Shown here: positions 3,252-36,496 of the stretch, piece after piece
How the letters are laid out: each line of letters opens with the position of its first letter
Numbering within the stretch: the first letter of the stretch is position 1
Source of the DNA: a virus
Strand: one strand, 5' to 3'
DNA length: 48,017 nt
IMG/VR virus record: IMGVR_UViG_3300026521_000370
Span: 1 to 48,017 of that record
The notes under the pieces: model-generated
Told to the model about the DNA's origin: nothing
Databases searched by the model: none
What the model saw: only the letters and a program-made list of their open reading frames with translations
Position numbers and translations under genes: made by a program

Positions 3252-3258
3252 TCCTGAA
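3241..3258 (+). terminator. Hairpin at the end of the clamp gene
   Basis: Stem TTCAGG/CCTGAA spanning the stop codon with loop CTTAGT, followed by the U-rich TAGTTTTCTT. Plausible weak terminator or mRNA 3' end. Confidence 0.5.
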
Positions 3259-3321
3259 TAGTTTTCTTATGGTTCAAATAAATTGACCCAATAAGTTTAA
3301 CAAAACACAATCAAAAAAACA

Positions 3322-3379
3322 AAAAATCGCACAATTTGCACAATAGCAAAATCGCACAAATTAAAATTAAGGAAAAAAT
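3322..3379 (+). promoter_or_regulatory. Repeat-bearing unstructured leader of the SSB gene
   Basis: A-rich, G-poor leader with TCGCACAA at about 3327 and again at 3350, plus TTGCACAA between them, just before the SSB start. T4 gp32 represses its own translation by binding an unstructured mRNA leader. This tract is a candidate operator of the same kind (inference). Confidence 0.4.
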
Positions 3380-4465
3380 ATGAATTTCAACTGGGATAAC
3401 TTAAAACAAAAAATGGGGAATATTAATTCTCAAAACAACAATGATCAAAAAGATGAAAGATTTTGGGCATTAACAAGAGATGAAACTGGAACTGGAACTG
3501 CTGTCGTAAGATTAGTACCTGGAAAGGGTGGGGATGCTACACCACCAATCGTAAGAGTTTTTAATCACGAAATCTTTATTAAAAAAGCAAACGGAAAATG
3601 GGGAGTATTTAAAAACCCATCGCCATCAACTATTGATAGACCTTGTCCAGTAAGTGATGCTTATATGGAATTAAAAAACTGTGGTATTGAACAATATGCT
3701 GATAAAATTGCTGGTAAAATTGGGAGAAGAACACAATTCATCTCAAATGTATATATTGCAAATGACTTAGGAAATCCAGGAAATAATGGAAAGCTTATGT
3801 TATGGGGATATGGAAAAACAATTTTTGAACAAATTCTTGGAGCATTAGAACCAAGCGATCAACAAAAACAATTAGGGGTTCAACCTAAAAACTTATTTGA
3901 TTTATCAAATGGTGAGGAAATTGTTGTTGCTGTAACTGGAAAAAAATTAGATACTACATATTCTTTAACTTTTAATCCTCCAAAAGCATTATGTGATGAT
4001 GCTTGTATTGCGGATATTATAGGAAATAAAGCAGTAGATTTAAATGAATTCTTAGATGAAAAAAGATTTAAAGATTATGATACTTTGAAAAATGAGTTCC
4101 ATAGAACTATTGCTGGTACAGATATTGAAAAAGCTTTATTAGAAATTGGAAGTCAAGTTATTACTGCTCCATACCAAGCAAATTCTGGAGGAGCAGCACA
4201 AGCTCAAAATATTCCAGCAAGCACAACTGCTGAAACTGCAGTTGTTGGAGGAGCAATAAATGTTGGAGTTACTCAAACAGCACCAGTTCAAGAAGTAGCT
4301 CAAACTGTAGCACCTACAGTTACACCAGTAGCTGAAGTTGCACAAGTGGCTCAAACTGCTACACCAACTGTAACACCTACAGTTGAGACTTCAGCACCAG
4401 TTCAAAATACAACTGCAGGAACATCAGCACCAGCTGATATTGAAGCTTTATTAAACGATCTTTAG
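3380..4465 (+). CDS. gp32: Single-stranded DNA-binding protein, T4 gp32-like
   Basis: 361 aa (T4 gp32 is 301). The N-terminal region (1-20) is Gln/Asn/Lys-rich. The OB core starts at RFWALTRDETGTGTAVVRLVPGK and contains FNHEIF, KNGKWG-like and GKLMLWGYGKTIFEQI segments typical of gp32. The extreme C-terminus DIEALLNDL is nearly identical to the T4 acidic tail DLDDLLNDL, which recruits partner proteins. A low-complexity Ala/Thr/Pro/Val linker (about 275-350) precedes the tail. Of the four T4 zinc ligands only His (H63) and one Cys (C89 of CPVS) are evident. The protein coats ssDNA at forks and recombination intermediates. AAGGAA ribosome site. Confidence 0.93.
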   Translation: MNFNWDNLKQKMGNINSQNNNDQKDERFWALTRDETGTGTAVVRLVPGKGGDATPPIVRVFNHEIFIKKANGKWGVFKNPSPSTIDRPCPVSDAYMELKNCGIEQYADKIAGKIGRRTQFISNVYIANDLGNPGNNGKLMLWGYGKTIFEQILGALEPSDQQKQLGVQPKNLFDLSNGEEIVVAVTGKKLDTTYSLTFNPPKALCDDACIADIIGNKAVDLNEFLDEKRFKDYDTLKNEFHRTIAGTDIEKALLEIGSQVITAPYQANSGGAAQAQNIPASTTAETAVVGGAINVGVTQTAPVQEVAQTVAPTVTPVAEVAQVAQTATPTVTPTVETSAPVQNTTAGTSAPADIEALLNDL

Positions 4466-8867: not shown

Positions 8868-8920
8868 CAAATCCTCAGCCCATTTATGGGAGTCGTTGCT
8901 AAGAGATTTGAAAATTTTTT
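8868..8920 (+). terminator. Structured end of the first tRNA-like transcript
   Basis: CAAATC (8868-8873) pairs with GATTTG (8905-8910) around an inner CCCA/TGGG hairpin (8879-8890), followed by AAAATTTTTT. Typical terminator geometry, although the enclosed 31 nt are long for a simple terminator. Confidence 0.5.
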
Positions 8921-8936
8921 AACTTTTTAATTAGAC

Positions 8937-8959
8937 TTTAAGCTTTAATTAGTTATAAT
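8937..8959 (+). promoter_or_regulatory. Promoter for tRNA-Ala
   Basis: TTTAAGC at 8937 and TATAAT at 8954 (offset 17), within a copy of the intergenic cassette GACTTTAAGCTTTAATTAG. Confidence 0.75.
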
Positions 8960-8971
8960 ATAAAGATAAAT

Positions 8972-9047
8972 GGGGTATTAGCTCATCAGGGAGAGCACTT
9001 GGTTTGCAACCAAGAGGTGATTGGTTCGAGACCAATATACTCCACCA
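8972..9047 (+). tRNA. tRNA-Ala (TGC)
   Basis: Acceptor GGGGTAT/ATACTCC, D arm GCTC..GAGC, anticodon arm CTTGG-TTTGCAA-CCAAG, T arm ATTGG-TTCGAGA-CCAAT, and encoded CCA. Confidence 0.95.
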
Positions 9048-9063
9048 TTAAATTTAATAAGAC

Positions 9064-9086
9064 TTTAAGCTTCAATTAGCTATAAT
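9064..9086 (+). promoter_or_regulatory. Promoter for tRNA-Phe
   Basis: TTTAAGC at 9064, TATAAT at 9081; 14 nt before the tRNA. Confidence 0.75.
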
Positions 9087-9100
9087 ATAAAAGTTTTAAA

Positions 9101-9176
9101 GGTCACATAGCTCAGTTGGTAGAGCACCAGACTGAAAATCTGGGTGTCACTGGTTCAACTCCAGTTGTGACCACCA
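9101..9176 (+). tRNA. tRNA-Phe (GAA)
   Basis: Acceptor GGTCACA/TGTGACC, anticodon arm CCAGA-CTGAAAA-TCTGG, T arm ACTGG-TTCAACT-CCAGT, and encoded CCA. All arms are canonical. Confidence 0.95.
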
Positions 9177-9258
9177 TTAAAAGTTATAAATTCTTTAAAC
9201 TTTATGAAGAATTTAATTAGACTTTAAGCTTTAATTAGCTATAATATAAAGATAAAAT
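9177..9258 (+). repeat. tRNA spacer cassette, copy 1 (hairpin plus promoter)
   Basis: About 80-nt spacer with hairpin AAATTCTT/AAGAATTT, then TTTAAGC (9223) and TATAAT (9240). Near-identical copies at 9494-9576 and 9652-9734 and a shortened copy at 9810-9880. Each ends one tRNA transcript and starts the next. Confidence 0.85.
9223..9245 (+). promoter_or_regulatory. Promoter for tRNA-Gln/Met/Thr
   Basis: TTTAAGC at 9223, TATAAT at 9240, inside cassette copy 1. Three tRNAs follow without another promoter. Confidence 0.75.
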
Positions 9259-9260
9259 AT

Positions 9261-9334
9261 TGCATCGTCGTCTAATGGCAGGACATCAGCCTTTGAAGTT
9301 GAGAATGCTGGTTCGATCCCAGCCGATGCATCCA
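9261..9334 (+). tRNA. tRNA-Gln (TTG)
   Basis: Acceptor TGCATCG/CGATGCA, anticodon arm TCAGC-CTTTGAA-GTTGA, T arm GCTGG-TTCGATC-CCAGC, and encoded CCA. It directly abuts the next tRNA, with no spacer. Confidence 0.93.
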
Positions 9335-9412
9335 GGGCAAATAACTCAGTTTGGTTAGAGTTCCCCACTCATAATGGGGTGGTCGTTGGTTCGAGTCCAG
9401 CTTTGCCCACCA
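9335..9412 (+). tRNA. tRNA with CAT anticodon (elongator Met or Ile2)
   Basis: Acceptor GGGCAAA/TTTGCCC fully paired, D arm ACTC..GAGT with C11-G24, anticodon arm CCCCA-CTCATAA-TGGGG, T arm GTTGG-TTCGAGT-CCAGC, and CCA. The paired 1-72 and C11-G24 mark it as non-initiator. Whether it reads AUG or, after lysidine modification, AUA cannot be told by eye. Confidence 0.9.
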
Positions 9413-9417
9413 TTAAT

Positions 9418-9493
9418 GCCCAATTAGTATAATGGATTATTATGCCAGTTTTGTACTCTGGTGATAGAGGTTCAATTCCTCTATTGGGCTCCA
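9418..9493 (+). tRNA. tRNA-Thr (TGT), copy 1
   Basis: Acceptor GCCCAAT/ATTGGGC, anticodon arm CCAGT-TTTGTAC-TCTGG with a T-T mismatch next to the loop, T arm AGAGG-TTCAATT-CCTCT, CCA. The D arm is short and AT-rich. The second Thr(TGT) gene at 14123 shares the same loop and mismatch. Confidence 0.85.
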
Positions 9494-9576
9494 TTAAAAG
9501 TTATAAATTCTTTAAACTTTATGAAGAATTTAATTAGACTTTAAGCTTTAATTAGCTATAATATAAAAGTTAAAAT
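9494..9576 (+). repeat. tRNA spacer cassette, copy 2
   Basis: Hairpin AAATTCTT/AAGAATTT followed by TTTAAGC (9540) and TATAAT (9557). Virtually identical to copy 3. Confidence 0.85.
9540..9562 (+). promoter_or_regulatory. Promoter for tRNA-Asp
   Basis: TTTAAGC at 9540, TATAAT at 9557, inside cassette copy 2. Confidence 0.75.
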
Positions 9577-9651
9577 GGTCTCGTCGTATAGTGGTTATTA
9601 CACCAGCCTGTCACGTTGGTTACGAGAGTTCAATTCTCTCCGGGATCGCCA
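9577..9651 (+). tRNA. tRNA-Asp (GTC)
   Basis: Acceptor GGTCTCG/CGGGATC, anticodon arm CCAGC-CTGTCAC-GTTGG, T arm GAGAG-TTCAATT-CTCTC, discriminator G, and CCA. Confidence 0.93.
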
Positions 9652-9734
9652 TTAAAAGTTATAAATTCTTTAAACTTTATGAAGAATTTAATTAGACTTT
9701 AAGCTTTAATTAGCTATAATATAAAAGTTAAAAT
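9652..9734 (+). repeat. tRNA spacer cassette, copy 3
   Basis: Same hairpin-plus-promoter unit as 9494-9576. Confidence 0.85.
9698..9720 (+). promoter_or_regulatory. Promoter for the first tRNA-Glu
   Basis: TTTAAGC at 9698, TATAAT at 9715, inside cassette copy 3. Confidence 0.75.
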
Positions 9735-9809
9735 GCTCGGTTCGACTATCGGTTAGGTCACCATACTTTCAATTTGGTAAGAGGGGTTCAATTCCCCTAC
9801 CGAGTACCA
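9735..9809 (+). tRNA. tRNA-Glu (TTC), divergent copy
   Basis: Acceptor GCTCGGT/ACCGAGT with G-T at position 1, D arm GAC..GTC, anticodon arm CCATA-CTTTCAA-TTTGG with one T-T mismatch, T arm AGGGG-TTCAATT-CCCCT, CCA. The body differs from the second Glu gene, so it is not a recent duplicate. Confidence 0.85.
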
Positions 9810-9880
9810 AAAAGTTATAAATTCTTTAAAAATTTAATTAGACTTTAAGCTTTAATTAGCTATAATATAAAAGTTAAAAT
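9810..9880 (+). repeat. tRNA spacer cassette, shortened copy 4
   Basis: Same unit as copies 1-3 but lacking about 12 nt of the hairpin's loop and right arm, so the hairpin is lost while the promoter remains. Confidence 0.75.
9844..9866 (+). promoter_or_regulatory. Promoter for the second tRNA-Glu
   Basis: TTTAAGC at 9844, TATAAT at 9861. Confidence 0.75.
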
Positions 9881-9955
9881 GGCTCCATAGTTTAGTGGTT
9901 AGAATATCGGGTTTTCATCTCGAGGACGAGAGTTCAATTCTCTCTGGAGTCACCA
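9881..9955 (+). tRNA. tRNA-Glu (TTC), canonical copy
   Basis: Acceptor GGCTCCA/TGGAGTC, anticodon arm TCGGG-TTTTCAT-CTCGA, T arm GAGAG-TTCAATT-CTCTC, CCA. Layout typical of bacterial tRNA-Glu. Confidence 0.92.
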
Positions 9956-9972
9956 TTGAAAGTTATAAATTG

Positions 9973-10072
9973 TCTTAATATACTGCTCCGGATTAACTCA
10001 GTTGGTAGAGTGCAACACTGTTAATGTTGAGGTCACTGGTTCGAGTCCAGTATCCGGAGCAGTGTATTAAGA
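9973..10072 (+). ncRNA. Long extended helix around tRNA-Asn
   Basis: Bases 9973-9986 are complementary to 10059-10072 (14 bp, one G-T). They stack directly on the 7-bp tRNA-Asn acceptor stem, giving 21 continuous base pairs capped by the cloverleaf. The pairing begins at the discriminator base. Confidence 0.8.
9987..10059 (+). tRNA. tRNA-Asn (GTT)
   Basis: Acceptor TCCGGAT/ATCCGGA, D arm ACTC..GAGT, anticodon arm CAACA-CTGTTAA-TGTTG, T arm ACTGG-TTCGAGT-CCAGT, discriminator G. Unlike most neighbours, CCA is not encoded (CAG follows) and the acceptor is extended by 14 bp in the flanks. Confidence 0.93.
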
Positions 10073-10089
10073 AAGGAATTTTATGAAAT

Positions 10090-10165
10090 GTATCGATAGC
10101 TCAGTTGGTAGAGCACCTGACTTTTAATCAGGGGGTCGTGGGATCGTTCCCCACTCGATACACCA
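10090..10165 (+). tRNA. tRNA-Lys (TTT)
   Basis: Acceptor GTATCGA/TCGATAC, anticodon arm CCTGA-CTTTTAA-TCAGG, CCA. The T arm GTGGG-ATCGTTC-CCCAC has a perfect stem but A at 54 and T at 58, the reverse of the universal T54-A58 pair. Confidence 0.9.
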
Positions 10166-10170
10166 TAAAT

Positions 10171-10254
10171 GTAGTTTGAAAGTCGTTCGGATACGGCAGC
10201 GAGACTGTAAATCTCGTCTCTAGGGGAGTGGTTCGAGTCCACCAAACTACACCA
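10171..10254 (+). tRNA. tRNA-Tyr (GTA)
   Basis: Acceptor GTAGTTT/AAACTAC, anticodon arm CGAGA-CTGTAAA-TCTCG, class II variable arm (TCTCTAGGGGA), T loop TTCGAGT, CCA. Confidence 0.92.
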
Positions 10255-10264
10255 TAAAGAAGTT

Positions 10265-10406
10265 AAAATACTTTTAAGAATAATGTTAAAAATGTTGAAA
10301 TTCCACGATTATACTAGATTTAATTTAAGTAGGCATTTCATTTGGAACAAGAGGGTGGAAATCTTGGGTAGCTTCGAAACTACAATATTATTTTTAAAAG
10401 TATTTT
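10265..10406 (+). ncRNA. Candidate structured RNA with a 20-bp closing helix
   Basis: Bases 10265-10284 pair with 10387-10406 (20 bp, one G-T). Inside are a hairpin CAAGA/TCTTG (10348-10366), whose loop GTGGAA can pair with TTCCAC at 10301-10306 (possible pseudoknot), and a hairpin GTAG/CTAC (10368-10383). No tRNA arms and no ORF. It lies between tRNA-Tyr and the CAT tRNA at 10529. The following 10407-10528 shows only weak stems (AAGG..CCTT, about 10472-10496) and nothing I can name. Confidence 0.6.
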
Positions 10407-10528
10407 ATTTATAAAATATAAGTTAATAGAAGTCTCAGTCGGCATTTATGTAAAGAGAGAGTGTTAGCTTTAAGGATACTTAGAAGTTTTTAACCTTATT
10501 TGAACATATCAAAATGGGTTTTATTTAT

Positions 10529-10603
10529 AGCAGTGTAGAGTACTGGTAACTCGCTTGGCTCATAACCAAGAATATGTTGGTTCAATTCCAACCACTGCAA
10601 CCA
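10529..10603 (+). tRNA. Initiator-like tRNA (CAT anticodon)
   Basis: Anticodon arm CTTGG-CTCATAA-CCAAG, T arm GTTGG-TTCAATT-CCAAC, CCA. The first acceptor pair is A1-A72 (unpaired), positions 2-7 pair perfectly, and the D stem GAGT/ACTC gives A11-T24. Both are hallmarks of bacterial tRNA-fMet. Only two of the three G-C pairs typical next to the initiator anticodon loop are present (30-40, 31-39). Confidence 0.8.
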
Positions 10604-10609
10604 ATGGAG

Positions 10610-10708
10610 AATAAAGTTTTTAAAATACTCTAATAAGCTACTTCCAGGTTCGCCTTTGAAGAGTATTTTAAAAACTTTATTAAAAATGTAAAGCGAGCGA
10701 ACCTGGAA
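10610..10708 (+). ncRNA. Large RNA pseudoknot upstream of the endonuclease gene
   Basis: Stem 1: 10610-10630 pairs perfectly with 10661-10681 (21 bp). Within its 30-nt loop, 10642-10653 (TTCCAGGTTCGC) is perfectly complementary to 10697-10708 (12 bp), which is outside stem 1. This gives an H-type pseudoknot or two competing structures. It ends 17 nt before the ribosome site of the endonuclease at 10738. Confidence 0.7.
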
Positions 10709-10737
10709 ATTTTCTTGCTTTTAAAAGGAGTATGAAA

Positions 10738-11424
10738 ATGTATATTTGTAAATATTGTGAACGAAAGTTTAAAAATAAAGGTGGTTATACAACCCACCAT
10801 CCATATTGTAAGGAAAATCCTAATAGAGTTCAAAGAGAAAAGTCTCCAAATGCTCATCGTAGAAAAGGATCTACTCCTTGGAATAAGGGAAAAACATTAG
10901 ATGAATTAGTAACTGAAGGAAAACTAAAAGAAGAGTCTAAAAACTCAATGATTTCTGGAAGTATAAAGGGTGGTTCAATTTCATCTGGTAAATGTTTAAA
11001 TGAAGAACTTGAATTAGAACGAAGAAAGAAAATTTCAGAAGCAATGAAAAATAACCCAAATTGCGGTGGTTATCGTAAAGGTTCAGGAATTGGTAAATCA
11101 GGATGGTATAAAGGATTTTATTGTGATAGTTCTTGGGAATTAGCTTTTGTGATTTATAATTTAGACCATAATATTCCCTTTAAAAGGAATAAAGAGAAGT
11201 TTGAATATATTTTTGAAGGAAAGAAAAGAAATTTCATTCCCGATTTTATTATGGGAAATGGTGAATTTTTAGAAATAAAGGGATATAAAACAGAACAGTG
11301 GGAAGCTAAATTAAAACAATTTAATAAACCACTAATAATTTTATATGAGAAAGAAATTAAAAAATATTTAGATTATGTTTATAAAAAATATGGAAAAAAT
11401 TTTATAGAGGTTTATGAAAAATAA
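10738..11424 (+). CDS. Homing-type endonuclease with PD-(D/E)XK nuclease domain
   Basis: 228 aa from ATG 10738; the AAAGGAG site is 7 nt away, whereas ATG 10732 would be only 1 nt from it. N-terminal Cys-rich finger YICKYCERKF..HHPYC. Then a NUMOD3-like GSTPWNKGKT segment. The C-terminal nuclease fold has SSWELAFVIYNLD, a R..F.Y fragment, FIPDFI and FLEIKGY, fitting E...PD...ExK catalytic residues. Such free-standing enzymes cut intronless alleles of neighbouring DNA and spread their own gene. It sits among tRNA genes and behind a large pseudoknot. Confidence 0.75.
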   Translation: MYICKYCERKFKNKGGYTTHHPYCKENPNRVQREKSPNAHRRKGSTPWNKGKTLDELVTEGKLKEESKNSMISGSIKGGSISSGKCLNEELELERRKKISEAMKNNPNCGGYRKGSGIGKSGWYKGFYCDSSWELAFVIYNLDHNIPFKRNKEKFEYIFEGKKRNFIPDFIMGNGEFLEIKGYKTEQWEAKLKQFNKPLIILYEKEIKKYLDYVYKKYGKNFIEVYEK

Positions 11425-11429
11425 ACCTC
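11407..11429 (+). terminator. Terminator at the end of the endonuclease gene
   Basis: Perfect 9-bp stem GAGGTTTAT/ATAAACCTC with loop GAAAA spanning the stop codon, then CATTCTGTTTT. Confidence 0.75.
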
Positions 11430-11466
11430 CATTCTGTTTTAAAAAGTTAATTAGTTTAATTTTTTA

Positions 11467-11729
11467 AAGTAGAATATCTACTTAGGAAGAAAGTTTTCTT
11501 CCGAGTTTTTCACAGAGTTTTTACTTATAAAAGCTGGATAATTTTTGCTAATCTGGGTTGATCTCCAAACTTGTGAAGAATTATAAACTACTCATTCGTT
11601 GGGTTTAAATTATTATACGATTATAATAAGGTTTAGGTGATAATGATTTTAAAGTTTGACTGCTATATCACTTCTATTAAATCGGAAAAACTTAGAGTCT
11701 GGAGGAGTATTTTACTGCTTATCCAACTC
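11467..11729 (+). ncRNA. Candidate multi-hairpin RNA before tRNA-Pro
   Basis: This 308-nt gene-free stretch (11425-11732) has a possible -10 (TAGAAT, 11471). Hairpins in order: AAGTAGA/TCTACTT (11467-11483); GGAAGAAA/TTTCTTCC (11485-11502, then GAGTTTTT). A 10-bp helix TTTTTCACAG/TTGTGAAGAA (11506-11515 with 11571-11580) encloses AGTTTTT/AAAAGCT. Then come TTATTATA/TATAATAA (about 11610-11629), AGGTGATA/TATCACTT and GAGTcTGGA/TCCAACTC (11695-11729). No coding frame or canonical tRNA seen. Confidence 0.5.
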
Positions 11730-11732
11730 ATT

Positions 11733-11808
11733 ATAAATGTTATGGTTAATAATGGGTTCAATTCCCATATCAACTGGTGTTTATTGGGTTCAATTCCCAA
11801 CATTTATA
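11733..11808 (+). tRNA. Degenerate tRNA-like element with two T-arm-like hairpins
   Basis: Perfect acceptor-type stem ATAAATG/CATTTAT and T arm TTGGG-TTCAATT-CCCAA. A second, almost identical hairpin ATGGG-TTCAATT-CCCAT lies at 11752-11768, where an anticodon arm would be (its loop would read CAA, Leu). No proper D arm and no CCA. The acceptor resembles that of the adjacent tRNA-Pro (CTAAATG/CATTTAG), suggesting a decayed duplicate. Confidence 0.4.
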
Positions 11809-11812
11809 ATAT

Positions 11813-11890
11813 CTAAATGTAGCTTAGTCTGGTTAAAGCACTTGTTTTGGGAACAAGGGATCGGAGGTTCAAATCCTCCCATTTAGACCA
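11813..11890 (+). tRNA. tRNA-Pro (TGG)
   Basis: Acceptor CTAAATG/CATTTAG, D arm GCTT..AAGC, anticodon arm CTTGT-TTTGGGA-ACAAG, T arm GGAGG-TTCAAAT-CCTCC, CCA. Confidence 0.93.
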
Positions 11891-11896
11891 TTTTAT

Positions 11897-11973
11897 GGTG
11901 TCGTTATCTTAATTGGTTAAAGTCTTGGTCTGTGAAACCGAGTATTTGAGTTCAATCCTCAAACGACACCCCA
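11897..11973 (+). tRNA. tRNA-His (GTG)
   Basis: G-1 at 11897 opposite C73, acceptor GTGTCGT/ACGACAC, anticodon arm TTGGT-CTGTGAA-ACCGA, T arm TTGAG-TTCAATC-CTCAA, CCA. The extra G-1 is the His identity element and is encoded. Confidence 0.92.
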
Positions 11974-11976
11974 TTT

Positions 11977-12063
11977 GCATCTATGGTGGAATAGGTAGAC
12001 ACAAGAGACTTAAAATCTCTCGGCTGAAAAGTCGTCCCAGTTCAACTCTGGGTAGATGCACCA
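11977..12063 (+). tRNA. tRNA-Leu (TAA)
   Basis: Class II tRNA: acceptor GCATCTA/TAGATGC, anticodon arm AGAGA-CTTAAAA-TCTCT, long variable arm CGGCTGAAAAGTCG, T arm with TTCAACT loop, CCA. Confidence 0.93.
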
Positions 12064-12070
12064 AAAATAA

Positions 12071-12157
12071 GGGGATATGGTGGAATTGGTAGACACGATG
12101 GTCTTAGAAACCATTGGCTGAAAAGTCGTGCAAGTTCAAGTCTTGCTATCCCCACCA
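12071..12157 (+). tRNA. tRNA-Leu (TAG)
   Basis: Class II: acceptor GGGGATA/TATCCCC, anticodon arm ATGGT-CTTAGAA-ACCAT, variable arm TGGCTGAAAAGTCG, T loop TTCAAGT, CCA. It shares the variable arm with the TAA isoacceptor. Confidence 0.93.
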
Positions 12158-12162
12158 TTTAT

Positions 12163-12239
12163 AGTCCTGTAGCTCAGTTGGTTAGAGCGTTCGACTGATA
12201 ATCGAAAGGTCACAAGTTCAAATCTTGTCAGGACTACCA
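12163..12239 (+). tRNA. tRNA-Ile (GAT)
   Basis: Acceptor AGTCCTG/CAGGACT, D arm GCTC..GAGC, anticodon arm TTCGA-CTGATAA-TCGAA, T arm ACAAG-TTCAAAT-CTTGT, CCA. Confidence 0.95.
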
Positions 12240-12243
12240 AAAT

Positions 12244-12318
12244 CTCGTGATAGTCTAATGGATAGGCATCGGTCTTCTAAATCGTTATATGTAGGTTCGA
12301 GTCCTACTCACGAGACCA
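12244..12318 (+). tRNA. tRNA-Arg (TCT)
   Basis: Acceptor CTCGTGA/TCACGAG, D arm GTCT..AGGC, anticodon loop CTTCTAA, T arm GTAGG-TTCGAGT-CCTAC, CCA. The anticodon stem has a T-T mismatch at 27-43. Confidence 0.9.
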
Positions 12319-12323
12319 TTTTT

Positions 12324-12399
12324 AAGGAAGTAGTTCAGTTGGTAGAATAGCAGATTCCAAATCTGTCGGTCAGGGGTTCAAATCCTCTCTTCCTTGCCA
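12324..12399 (+). tRNA. tRNA-Trp (CCA)
   Basis: Acceptor AAGGAAG/CTTCCTT, anticodon arm GCAGA-TTCCAAA-TCTGT, T arm AGGGG-TTCAAAT-CCTCT, discriminator G, CCA. Last of a tight run of seven tRNAs. Confidence 0.93.
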
Positions 12400-13317: not shown

Positions 13318-14067
13318 ATGAATTATAAATTACATTATGATAAACTTATTGAAAAAGCGAGAAAAAGAAAACTAACTTCTTATAAAGAAAGTCACCATAT
13401 TATTCCAAAATGTATGGGTGGTAGTGATAAAAAAGAGAATTTAGTTGATTTGACTGCTAGGGAACATTTTGTTGCTCATATATTATTAACTAAAATTTAT
13501 CCAAACGAGGGTGGTCTTATTAAAGCTGTTCAAATGATGTGTATTGGTCAAGAAGAAAGAAAGATGCATAATAGAATGTATGGTTGGTTGAGAGAAAAAT
13601 TTAGTAAAAGAATGTCTAAAGATCAAAGTGGTGAGAAGAATTCACAATTTGGAACTATTTGGATTTGTAATATAGAAAAGCAAGAAAATAAAAAAGTTGA
13701 TAAAAATCAAACTATTCCTAAAGGATGGTTAAAGGGTCGAAATCTTTGGAAGAAGGATTTATTAACACCAAATGAAAGAAATGAAAAACGAAAGCTTGAG
13801 ACAATTAAAAGAAATGAAAAAGTTAAACTTTTAAAACAACAAGAGCGAGAAAGAAAAAAGTTAGAAAAACAAGAAAAATATAGGAGTGATTATTTTTTGT
13901 TTAGGGAAATAGGTTTTGAAAAATTCAAAATTAAGACAAACTATGATAAAAGTTATGAAAATTTAGTAGCACTTTTTAAAAAATATGTTCCTGAATATAT
14001 TTCAATGGATCATAAAGCAGTCAAAAAACGGAGAATAAACCAGATAGGATCTGGCACTGTTTGCTAA
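13318..14067 (+). CDS. HNH homing-type endonuclease, 3' end inside tRNA-Ser
   Basis: 249 aa. N-terminal HNH module: KESHHIIPKCMGGSDKKENLVDL.AREHFVAHILLTKIYP supplies the His-His...Asn...His residues of the beta-beta-alpha-metal nuclease. A GEKNSQFGTIWICN...PKGWLKGRN segment (about 103-142) is the DNA-binding repeat common in T4-type homing enzymes. The C-terminus is very Lys/Arg-rich. The last 12 codons and the stop lie within the tRNA-Ser gene. AGAAGGAT ribosome site preceded by a structured leader. Confidence 0.85.
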   Translation: MNYKLHYDKLIEKARKRKLTSYKESHHIIPKCMGGSDKKENLVDLTAREHFVAHILLTKIYPNEGGLIKAVQMMCIGQEERKMHNRMYGWLREKFSKRMSKDQSGEKNSQFGTIWICNIEKQENKKVDKNQTIPKGWLKGRNLWKKDLLTPNERNEKRKLETIKRNEKVKLLKQQERERKKLEKQEKYRSDYFLFREIGFEKFKIKTNYDKSYENLVALFKKYVPEYISMDHKAVKKRRINQIGSGTVC

Positions 14068-14117
14068 ACAGTTGGAGGTTTTAAAGCCTTGGGAGTCGGG
14101 ATCCCTGTTCTCCTCCA
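14030..14117 (+). tRNA. tRNA-Ser (GCT)
   Basis: Class II: acceptor GGAGAAT/GTTCTCC, anticodon arm ACTGT-TTGCTAA-ACAGT, long variable arm, discriminator T, CCA. The T loop GTCGGGA lacks T54 and A58. Its first 38 nt overlap the end of the HNH endonuclease frame. Confidence 0.85.
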
Positions 14118-14122
14118 TAAAT

Positions 14123-14199
14123 GCTGGTGTAACTCAGTTGGCTAGAGTTCCTGTTTTGTACTCAGGTTGTCGGGGGTTCAAATCCTCTCACCAGCTCCA
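14123..14199 (+). tRNA. tRNA-Thr (TGT), copy 2
   Basis: Acceptor GCTGGTG/CACCAGC, D arm ACTC..GAGT, anticodon arm CCTGT-TTTGTAC-TCAGG (same T-T mismatch as copy 1), T arm GGGGG-TTCAAAT-CCTCT, CCA. Last tRNA of the island. Confidence 0.9.
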
Positions 14200-18697: not shown

Positions 18698-18759
18698 AAA
18701 AATAAAAATGTCCTCCAGATGCTAAAACTTTTTTATGTCTCCAAGACAAAATAAAAATA
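18698..18759 (+). repeat. 62-bp direct repeat, copy 2
   Basis: Second copy, 110 bp downstream of the first. A related array in reverse orientation occurs at 46841-47047. Confidence 0.9.
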
Positions 18760-18788
18760 CTTTAAAAATCTATAAAATTTAATTTCTT

Positions 18789-18811
18789 TTTAAGCTTTAT
18801 TTAGCTATAAT
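18789..18811 (+). promoter_or_regulatory. Host-type promoter for the 18832 operon
   Basis: TTTAAGC at 18789, TATAAT at 18806, offset 17; 21 nt from the start codon. Confidence 0.75.
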
Positions 18812-18831
18812 ATAAAATAAAAAGGATACAT

Positions 18832-36488: not shown

Positions 36489-36496
36489 TATAAATA
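36489..36496 (+). promoter_or_regulatory. Late promoter of the capsid gene
   Basis: TATAAATAA 27 nt before the capsid start codon; best-placed late promoter in the window. Confidence 0.75.

Follow-up and report, generated by a model that had tools for sequence, protein, structure and literature searches.

Several phage homing nuclease genes, namely I-TevI, I-TevII, I-TevIII, segB and Aeh1 mobE, have ribosome-binding sites (RBSs) that are hidden by hairpins and promoters placed so that transcripts escape them (PMC2988022; PMC3014915). In seg43(25) of Aeromonas phage 25, a very stable hairpin lies immediately upstream of the RBS and the RBS itself is uncovered (PMC2988022). The gene 32 leader of T4, T2 and RB69 carries a pseudoknot, with an A+U-rich ribosome site following it (PMC3014915). 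At the locus described here, a large pseudoknot precedes a homing-type nuclease gene within a phage tRNA array, and a hairpin abutting the pseudoknot is predicted to cover the ribosome site.

The window, by which we mean the whole stretch of DNA analysed, is a 48-kb IMG/VR virus record with 28% G+C. It encodes a gp23-type capsid protein, a prohead protease, a gp32-type SSB and topoisomerase subunits, genes which together indicate a T4-like phage. ARAGORN places a tRNA array at 8972-12399 and an additional tRNA at 14123. The nuclease gene is on the same strand as the array, in which promoter-like sites are repeated at 8932-9866; a promoter-like block, AGACTTTAAGCTTTAATTAG.TATAATAT, recurs before many of the tRNAs and in at least one other place (Table 1). 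No promoter-like site of this type was found on the + strand of the nuclease leader, and the consensus late promoter TATAAATA is absent from the + strand of 10529-10738, while being present elsewhere in the window, for example at 36489 before gp23. A hairpin over the nuclease stop codon is a possible end of the nuclease message.

The first-pass annotation, made from the sequence alone, had described a perfect stem of 21 bp with a 30-nt loop. The stem is indeed perfect, but it measures 22 bp and its loop 28 nt (helix A), while the 12-nt loop segment said to be perfectly complementary to sequence downstream of the stem was found just as claimed and makes up the 12-bp helix B. The helices follow the order A-B-A'-B', which defines a 99-nt pseudoknot of the H type. 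The 34 pairs are without exception Watson-Crick, and the lack of any G-U pair is mildly unusual for helices working at the RNA level. The pseudoknot is not a product of chance. Its score was never reached when the 301-nt upstream region was put through 100 dinucleotide shuffles. Of 5,000 such shuffles made from 10604-10740, none held a perfect pseudoknot as large as 12+9 bp and 16 held one of 10+8 bp, which bears out the earlier judgement that two interlocked helices of this kind would be improbable. With helix A given, a loop-to-downstream helix of at least 12 bp appeared in 4 of 20,000 shuffles, and no 12+9 or 10+8 pseudoknot was present in other leaders (150 nt upstream, 54 window genes). 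Rfam 15 covariance models gave no match at 10604-10740 beyond sub-threshold hits of microRNA type on helix A, which scored 22-25 bits where the cut-offs are 83-98, and for want of an Rfam match the idea that the leader holds a group I intron or another known RNA was rejected.

Table 1. Features of the nuclease locus and its surroundings (positions in the window)
Feature	Position	Strand	Basis or stability
Promoter-like block copies	8912-8964, 9207-9257, 9524-9575, 9682-9733, 9827-9889, 18748-18823
tRNA-Met gene, immediately upstream	10529..10603	+	ARAGORN, Rfam tRNA
Helix A 5' arm, AATAAAGTTTTTAAAATACTCT	10610..10631	+	sequence
Helix B 5' arm, TTCCAGGTTCGC, inside helix A loop	10642..10653	+	duplex -20.9 kcal/mol
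Helix A 3' arm	10660..10681	+	open-loop hairpin -20.6 kcal/mol
Helix B 3' arm, GCGAACCTGGAA	10697..10708	+	sequence
Competing hairpin P3 (putative anti-sequestor)	10690..10721	+	-7.2 kcal/mol; 111/1000 shuffles equally stable
Hairpin P4	10709..10740 (pairs 10709-10739)	+	-7.7 kcal/mol; 2/1000 shuffles equally stable
Shine-Dalgarno GGAG of nuclease gene	10727..10730	+	unpaired probability <=0.16, folded to 10790
PD-(D/E)XK (T7 endonuclease I-like) homing-type nuclease, 228 aa	10738..11424	+
Variable block: pseudoknot and nearly all of the nuclease gene; missing in L034/L035	~10611-11409	+
Hairpin GAGGTTTAT-GAAAA-ATAAACCTC over nuclease stop codon	11407..11429	+

The structure does not end with helix B, short of the ribosome site, as had first been supposed. 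Hairpin P4 begins at the base directly after helix B and, in the leader folded to 10790, takes up the GGAG together with bases 10738-10739 of the AUG; since they adjoin, helix B and P4 can stack in the model. The nuclease start region has the second lowest accessibility among the 54 window genes. The start codon is likely ATG 10738, because ATG 10732 falls just 1 nt past the Shine-Dalgarno, whereas ATG 10738 is spaced 7 nt from it and agrees with the N-termini of nuclease relatives; on these two grounds it replaces the start assigned in the first-pass annotation.

A second hairpin, P3, competes with P4. It overlaps the 3' arm of helix B as well as bases of P4 and leaves the Shine-Dalgarno free; its stability is unexceptional and its energy similar to that of P4. 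Without the pseudoknot the two are near balance (helix A + P3, -29.4; helix A + P4, -29.8), and with the helix B strands held, folding excludes P3 and buries the Shine-Dalgarno. Since P3 shares bases with helix B, the pseudoknot should favour the hidden, OFF state. With the initiation penalty set from 15 down to 7, the pseudoknot with P4 comes to roughly -45 to -53 kcal/mol, and the best non-pseudoknotted fold of 10604-10760 to -35.8 kcal/mol; these energies are approximate, ViennaRNA having no pseudoknot model and the penalty being assumed over a range. It should be noted that in an alternative global fold, in which helix B forms a plain nested hairpin alongside P4 and helix A is absent, the Shine-Dalgarno is hidden too, so that helix A may not be needed for this.

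The protein encoded downstream is a PD-(D/E)XK homing-type nuclease, an assignment already made in the first-pass annotation and now backed by conserved motifs, T7 endonuclease I profiles and a structure model. Its N-terminal part has a zinc-finger-like CxxC...H...C arrangement followed by a linker motif of the WNKGK type, and its C-terminal PD-(D/E)XK domain carries CDSSWE...PDF...EIKG, motifs that are near-invariant across 20 aligned family members. PF05367 matched 4 of 5 members scanned (Pfam, up to 2e-5), the window protein falling under the gathering score, and the family profile matched 1m0d (E 4e-4). The nuclease domain is confidently predicted by AlphaFold; taken whole, the model resembles PDB folds only weakly, with 3hrl, an endonuclease-like protein, and the catalytic domain of the homing endonuclease I-Bth0305I as its two best matches.

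Relatives were fetched from 80 viral sequences and 6 genome contigs. tRNA genes were present in 29 of the 31 relative loci scanned, and at many loci a tRNA-Ser gene overlaps the ORF or lies no more than a few bases from its end (L055, L056, L057, L061, L065, L079 and L101, for example). Of 51 family leaders, 11 have the T4-type late promoter TATAAATA no more than 70 nt before the ORF, against an expectation of about 0.8. Among leaders read individually, those of L084, L056 and L038 resemble orphan tRNA 5' halves that end at the anticodon (tRNA-Ser TTGA and tRNA-Ile GAT); after the orphan half come a TATAAATA-like late promoter and then the nuclease, with an ARAGORN-called tRNA past the stop codon. 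This arrangement suggests that several of the relatives may have inserted at tRNA anticodon loops. In the literature searched we found no description of how this tRNA-array family of PD-(D/E)XK nucleases spreads. One relative, in Prevotella phage Lak-B1 (L029, 2514-3500), contains in-frame TAG codons, consistent with the recoding of TAG as Gln in Lak phages.

The closest relatives of the window are two contigs from one metagenome, L034 and L035, which are mostly about 90-94% identical to it in nucleotide sequence and, coming from a single sample, are weak as independent evidence. Both share the Tyr-Met part of the array, and L034 also the Pro gene, and both lack the pseudoknot together with nearly all of the nuclease gene. 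This joint absence argues for a single cassette, which the pseudoknot leader and the nuclease appear to form. The left edge of the missing block coincides with the start of helix A to within about 1 nt. L034 and L035 retain GTTTATGAAAAATAA, which corresponds to the last residues of the nuclease, VYEK, and its stop; since nuclease relatives end in a similar way (LYE or LYEK), the site in these contigs is more suggestive of a scar left by deletion than of a site that was never invaded. A scan for a third allele with the conserved downstream sequence gave only a contig already known. At the left edge, GGAGAATAAA (10606-10615) is identical to the start of the tRNA-Ser-like gene at 14030, and a tRNA 5'-half relic was considered there; the motif occurs 4 times in the window, and for that reason no such claim is built on the match.

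Between tRNA-Tyr and tRNA-Met, 10262-10410 looks like an unannotated structured RNA closed by an AT-rich stem of about 24 bp (10264-10287/10384-10407), whose pairs are kept in the relative phage by compensatory changes; 11 of 44 predicted pairs show pair-preserving changes on both sides against L034/L035, in a comparison of three sequences only, two of them nearly identical, and the element has no Rfam match. Also between these two tRNAs, L035 holds about 250 nt of extra non-coding DNA (13858-14106) compared with L034 from the same sample. Following the nuclease, 11425-11812 is a stretch of 388 nt that has no ORF, is 92% identical to L034, is strongly folded (z -4.0) and ends in a tRNA-sized element with two T-arm-like copies of GGGTTCAATTCCC. 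Further on, the ORF of an HNH homing endonuclease (13318-14067) extends into the 5' portion of a tRNA-Ser(GCU)-like gene (14030-14117) that has odd D and T arms and is reported by neither ARAGORN nor the Rfam tRNA model; in L034, ARAGORN calls a tRNA-Ser(GCT) at 1640-1725, a place that lacks an HNH gene.

Among the sequences compared, the pseudoknot leader is a feature of a single family member. Pattern scans with helix B, a low-stringency similarity search and inspection of the nuclease-family leaders revealed no diverged copy. The helix B sequence, CAGGTTCGC...GCGAACCTG, recurs at 23 viral loci, none of which has a comparable helix A, and a helix-A core pattern has matches at 22 viral loci, from which we claim no homologous leader. 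Against phage records, the matches listed for the leader were partial (23-28% of the query) with E values of 0.03 or worse. Neither a conserved pseudoknot beside the relatives nor a general hiding of the ribosome site in the family held up: 3 of 54 leaders beat 20 shuffles, which is about chance, and the comparison with control genes gave p = 0.28. The suggestion in the first-pass annotation that the structure might be an RNA partner of the nuclease finds no support, given the lack of any such structure at the other family leaders and of an Rfam match.

We give about an even chance to a cis-acting translational lock of the kind found in T4 homing nuclease genes, to which a pseudoknot has been added and from which the usual late promoter is missing. 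Transcripts would read through from the upstream tRNA promoters into the nuclease leader, where helix A would fold first and helix B next, closing the pseudoknot. P4, abutting helix B, would then cover the Shine-Dalgarno together with the greater part of the start codon, and little nuclease would be translated. Were helix B missing or opened, P3 could replace P4 and free the ribosome site; candidates for such relief are a transcript that begins past helix A, a cut by an RNase within helix A, or a bound protein. Formation of the pseudoknot in the cell, repression of translation and the existence of some relieving factor are what we infer. Of the three ideas in the first-pass annotation, a translational switch is the best supported: in silico P4 buries the RBS and the pseudoknot excludes P3, and T4-type homing nuclease genes are known to employ RNA structure in this manner (PMC2988022; PMC3014915). 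A more elaborate version, in which the RNA would be a three-state switch (pseudoknot with P4 against P3) sensing the stage of infection to time the homing nuclease, seems to us quite unlikely; its signal could be a protein, an RNase or the speed of transcription, and it would amount to a riboswitch-like device of a selfish gene.

Helix A might instead serve RNA processing, as an RNase III-like site or an exonuclease block that parts the tRNA-Met precursor from the nuclease message, with the pseudoknot stabilising that boundary and translation control secondary. Perfect RNA stems of 22 bp are typical substrates for a double-strand RNase, this one starts only 6 nt past the CCA end of tRNA-Met, and the same tRNA array has a second long AT-rich stem with compensatory changes (that of 10262-10410). 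Even so, we regard processing as an unlikely main role: it leaves helix B and the abutting RBS hairpin unexplained, and the relative phage without helix A keeps its tRNA-Met gene, so that the stem is evidently not needed for tRNA maturation.

It is decidedly unlikely, in our view, that the pseudoknot is an operator bound by a phage protein, either the gene 32 SSB or the nuclease, that represses or relieves translation. Autorepression by T4 gp32 does work by way of a pseudoknot in its mRNA leader (PMC3014915), the window phage encodes a gp32-type SSB (3380-4465), and the sequence after the pseudoknot is A-T-rich. However, no strong or comparable pseudoknot is present at 3252-3379, the leader of gene 32 in this phage, for which reason an operator of the gene 32 type was rejected here, and the nuclease RBS lies in a hairpin whereas that of T4 gene 32 is open (PMC3014915).

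The inverted repeats could also act as DNA, as a cruciform, a recombination end or a recognition site for the nuclease, whose domain resembles T7 endonuclease I. T7 endonuclease I is a branched-DNA enzyme, helix A sits at the edge of the variable block, and 34 of 34 pairs are Watson-Crick. We nevertheless hold a DNA-level role to be very unlikely, given that relatives of the nuclease have no such repeats, that the order A-B-A'-B' bars both helices from forming as nested cruciform arms, that no matching repeat was found at the right edge of the block, and that the RBS hairpin right after helix B would be unexplained. As to the earlier idea of a mobile-element end, the structure does sit on the left edge of the variable block, but no matching one was found on the right edge. 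Least probable of all, and highly unlikely, is a functionless relic of insertion, replication error or chance on AT-rich DNA: the absence of conservation elsewhere and a neighbouring array full of insertions and deletions would fit it, but not even a 12+9 pair arose in the 5,000 shuffles, one inverted duplication gives nested repeats so that interlocking needs two events, both unmutated, and P4 is unusual in its own right.

T4 homing nuclease genes achieve early silence by simple hairpins. A pseudoknot-gated leader, if true, would mean that more elaborate RNA control has evolved in selfish genes, and the locus also points to a PD-(D/E)XK family concentrated in phage tRNA arrays and often abutting tRNA-Ser genes. 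Among known systems, the type of IscB/IsrB with HEARO or omega RNA was rejected, the nuclease being PD-(D/E)XK and not RuvC/HNH, with no Rfam match and with relatives that lack the structure. With T7 endonuclease I and PF05367 the nuclease shares the PDF...EIKG core of its C-terminal domain; it differs from T7 endonuclease I in its additional N-terminal zinc-finger-like and linker parts and in its location in a tRNA array, as is the case for free-standing homing genes. The T4 gene 32 pseudoknot regulates an SSB gene through SSB binding, whereas here the gene encodes a nuclease and its RBS is structured. For seg43(25) no pseudoknot is described, and in the window leader a second hairpin covers the RBS. 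The nearest likeness is to the T4-type homing genes, with which the locus has in common a T4-like phage, a homing-type nuclease and a Shine-Dalgarno predicted, on long transcripts from upstream, to lie in a hairpin directly before the ORF, and segB, like the window nuclease, lies among tRNA genes (PMC2988022; PMC3014915). The differences are that the RNA-regulated homing genes of that type encode GIY-YIG or HNH rather than PD-(D/E)XK nucleases, that the window leader has no consensus late promoter to give structure-free late transcripts, and that, unlike in I-TevI, segB and mobE, the RBS hairpin here has a 34-bp pseudoknot coupled to it on its upstream side. Control of homing genes by hiding the RBS is already known, and this locus most likely represents a form of it to which a pseudoknot has been added.
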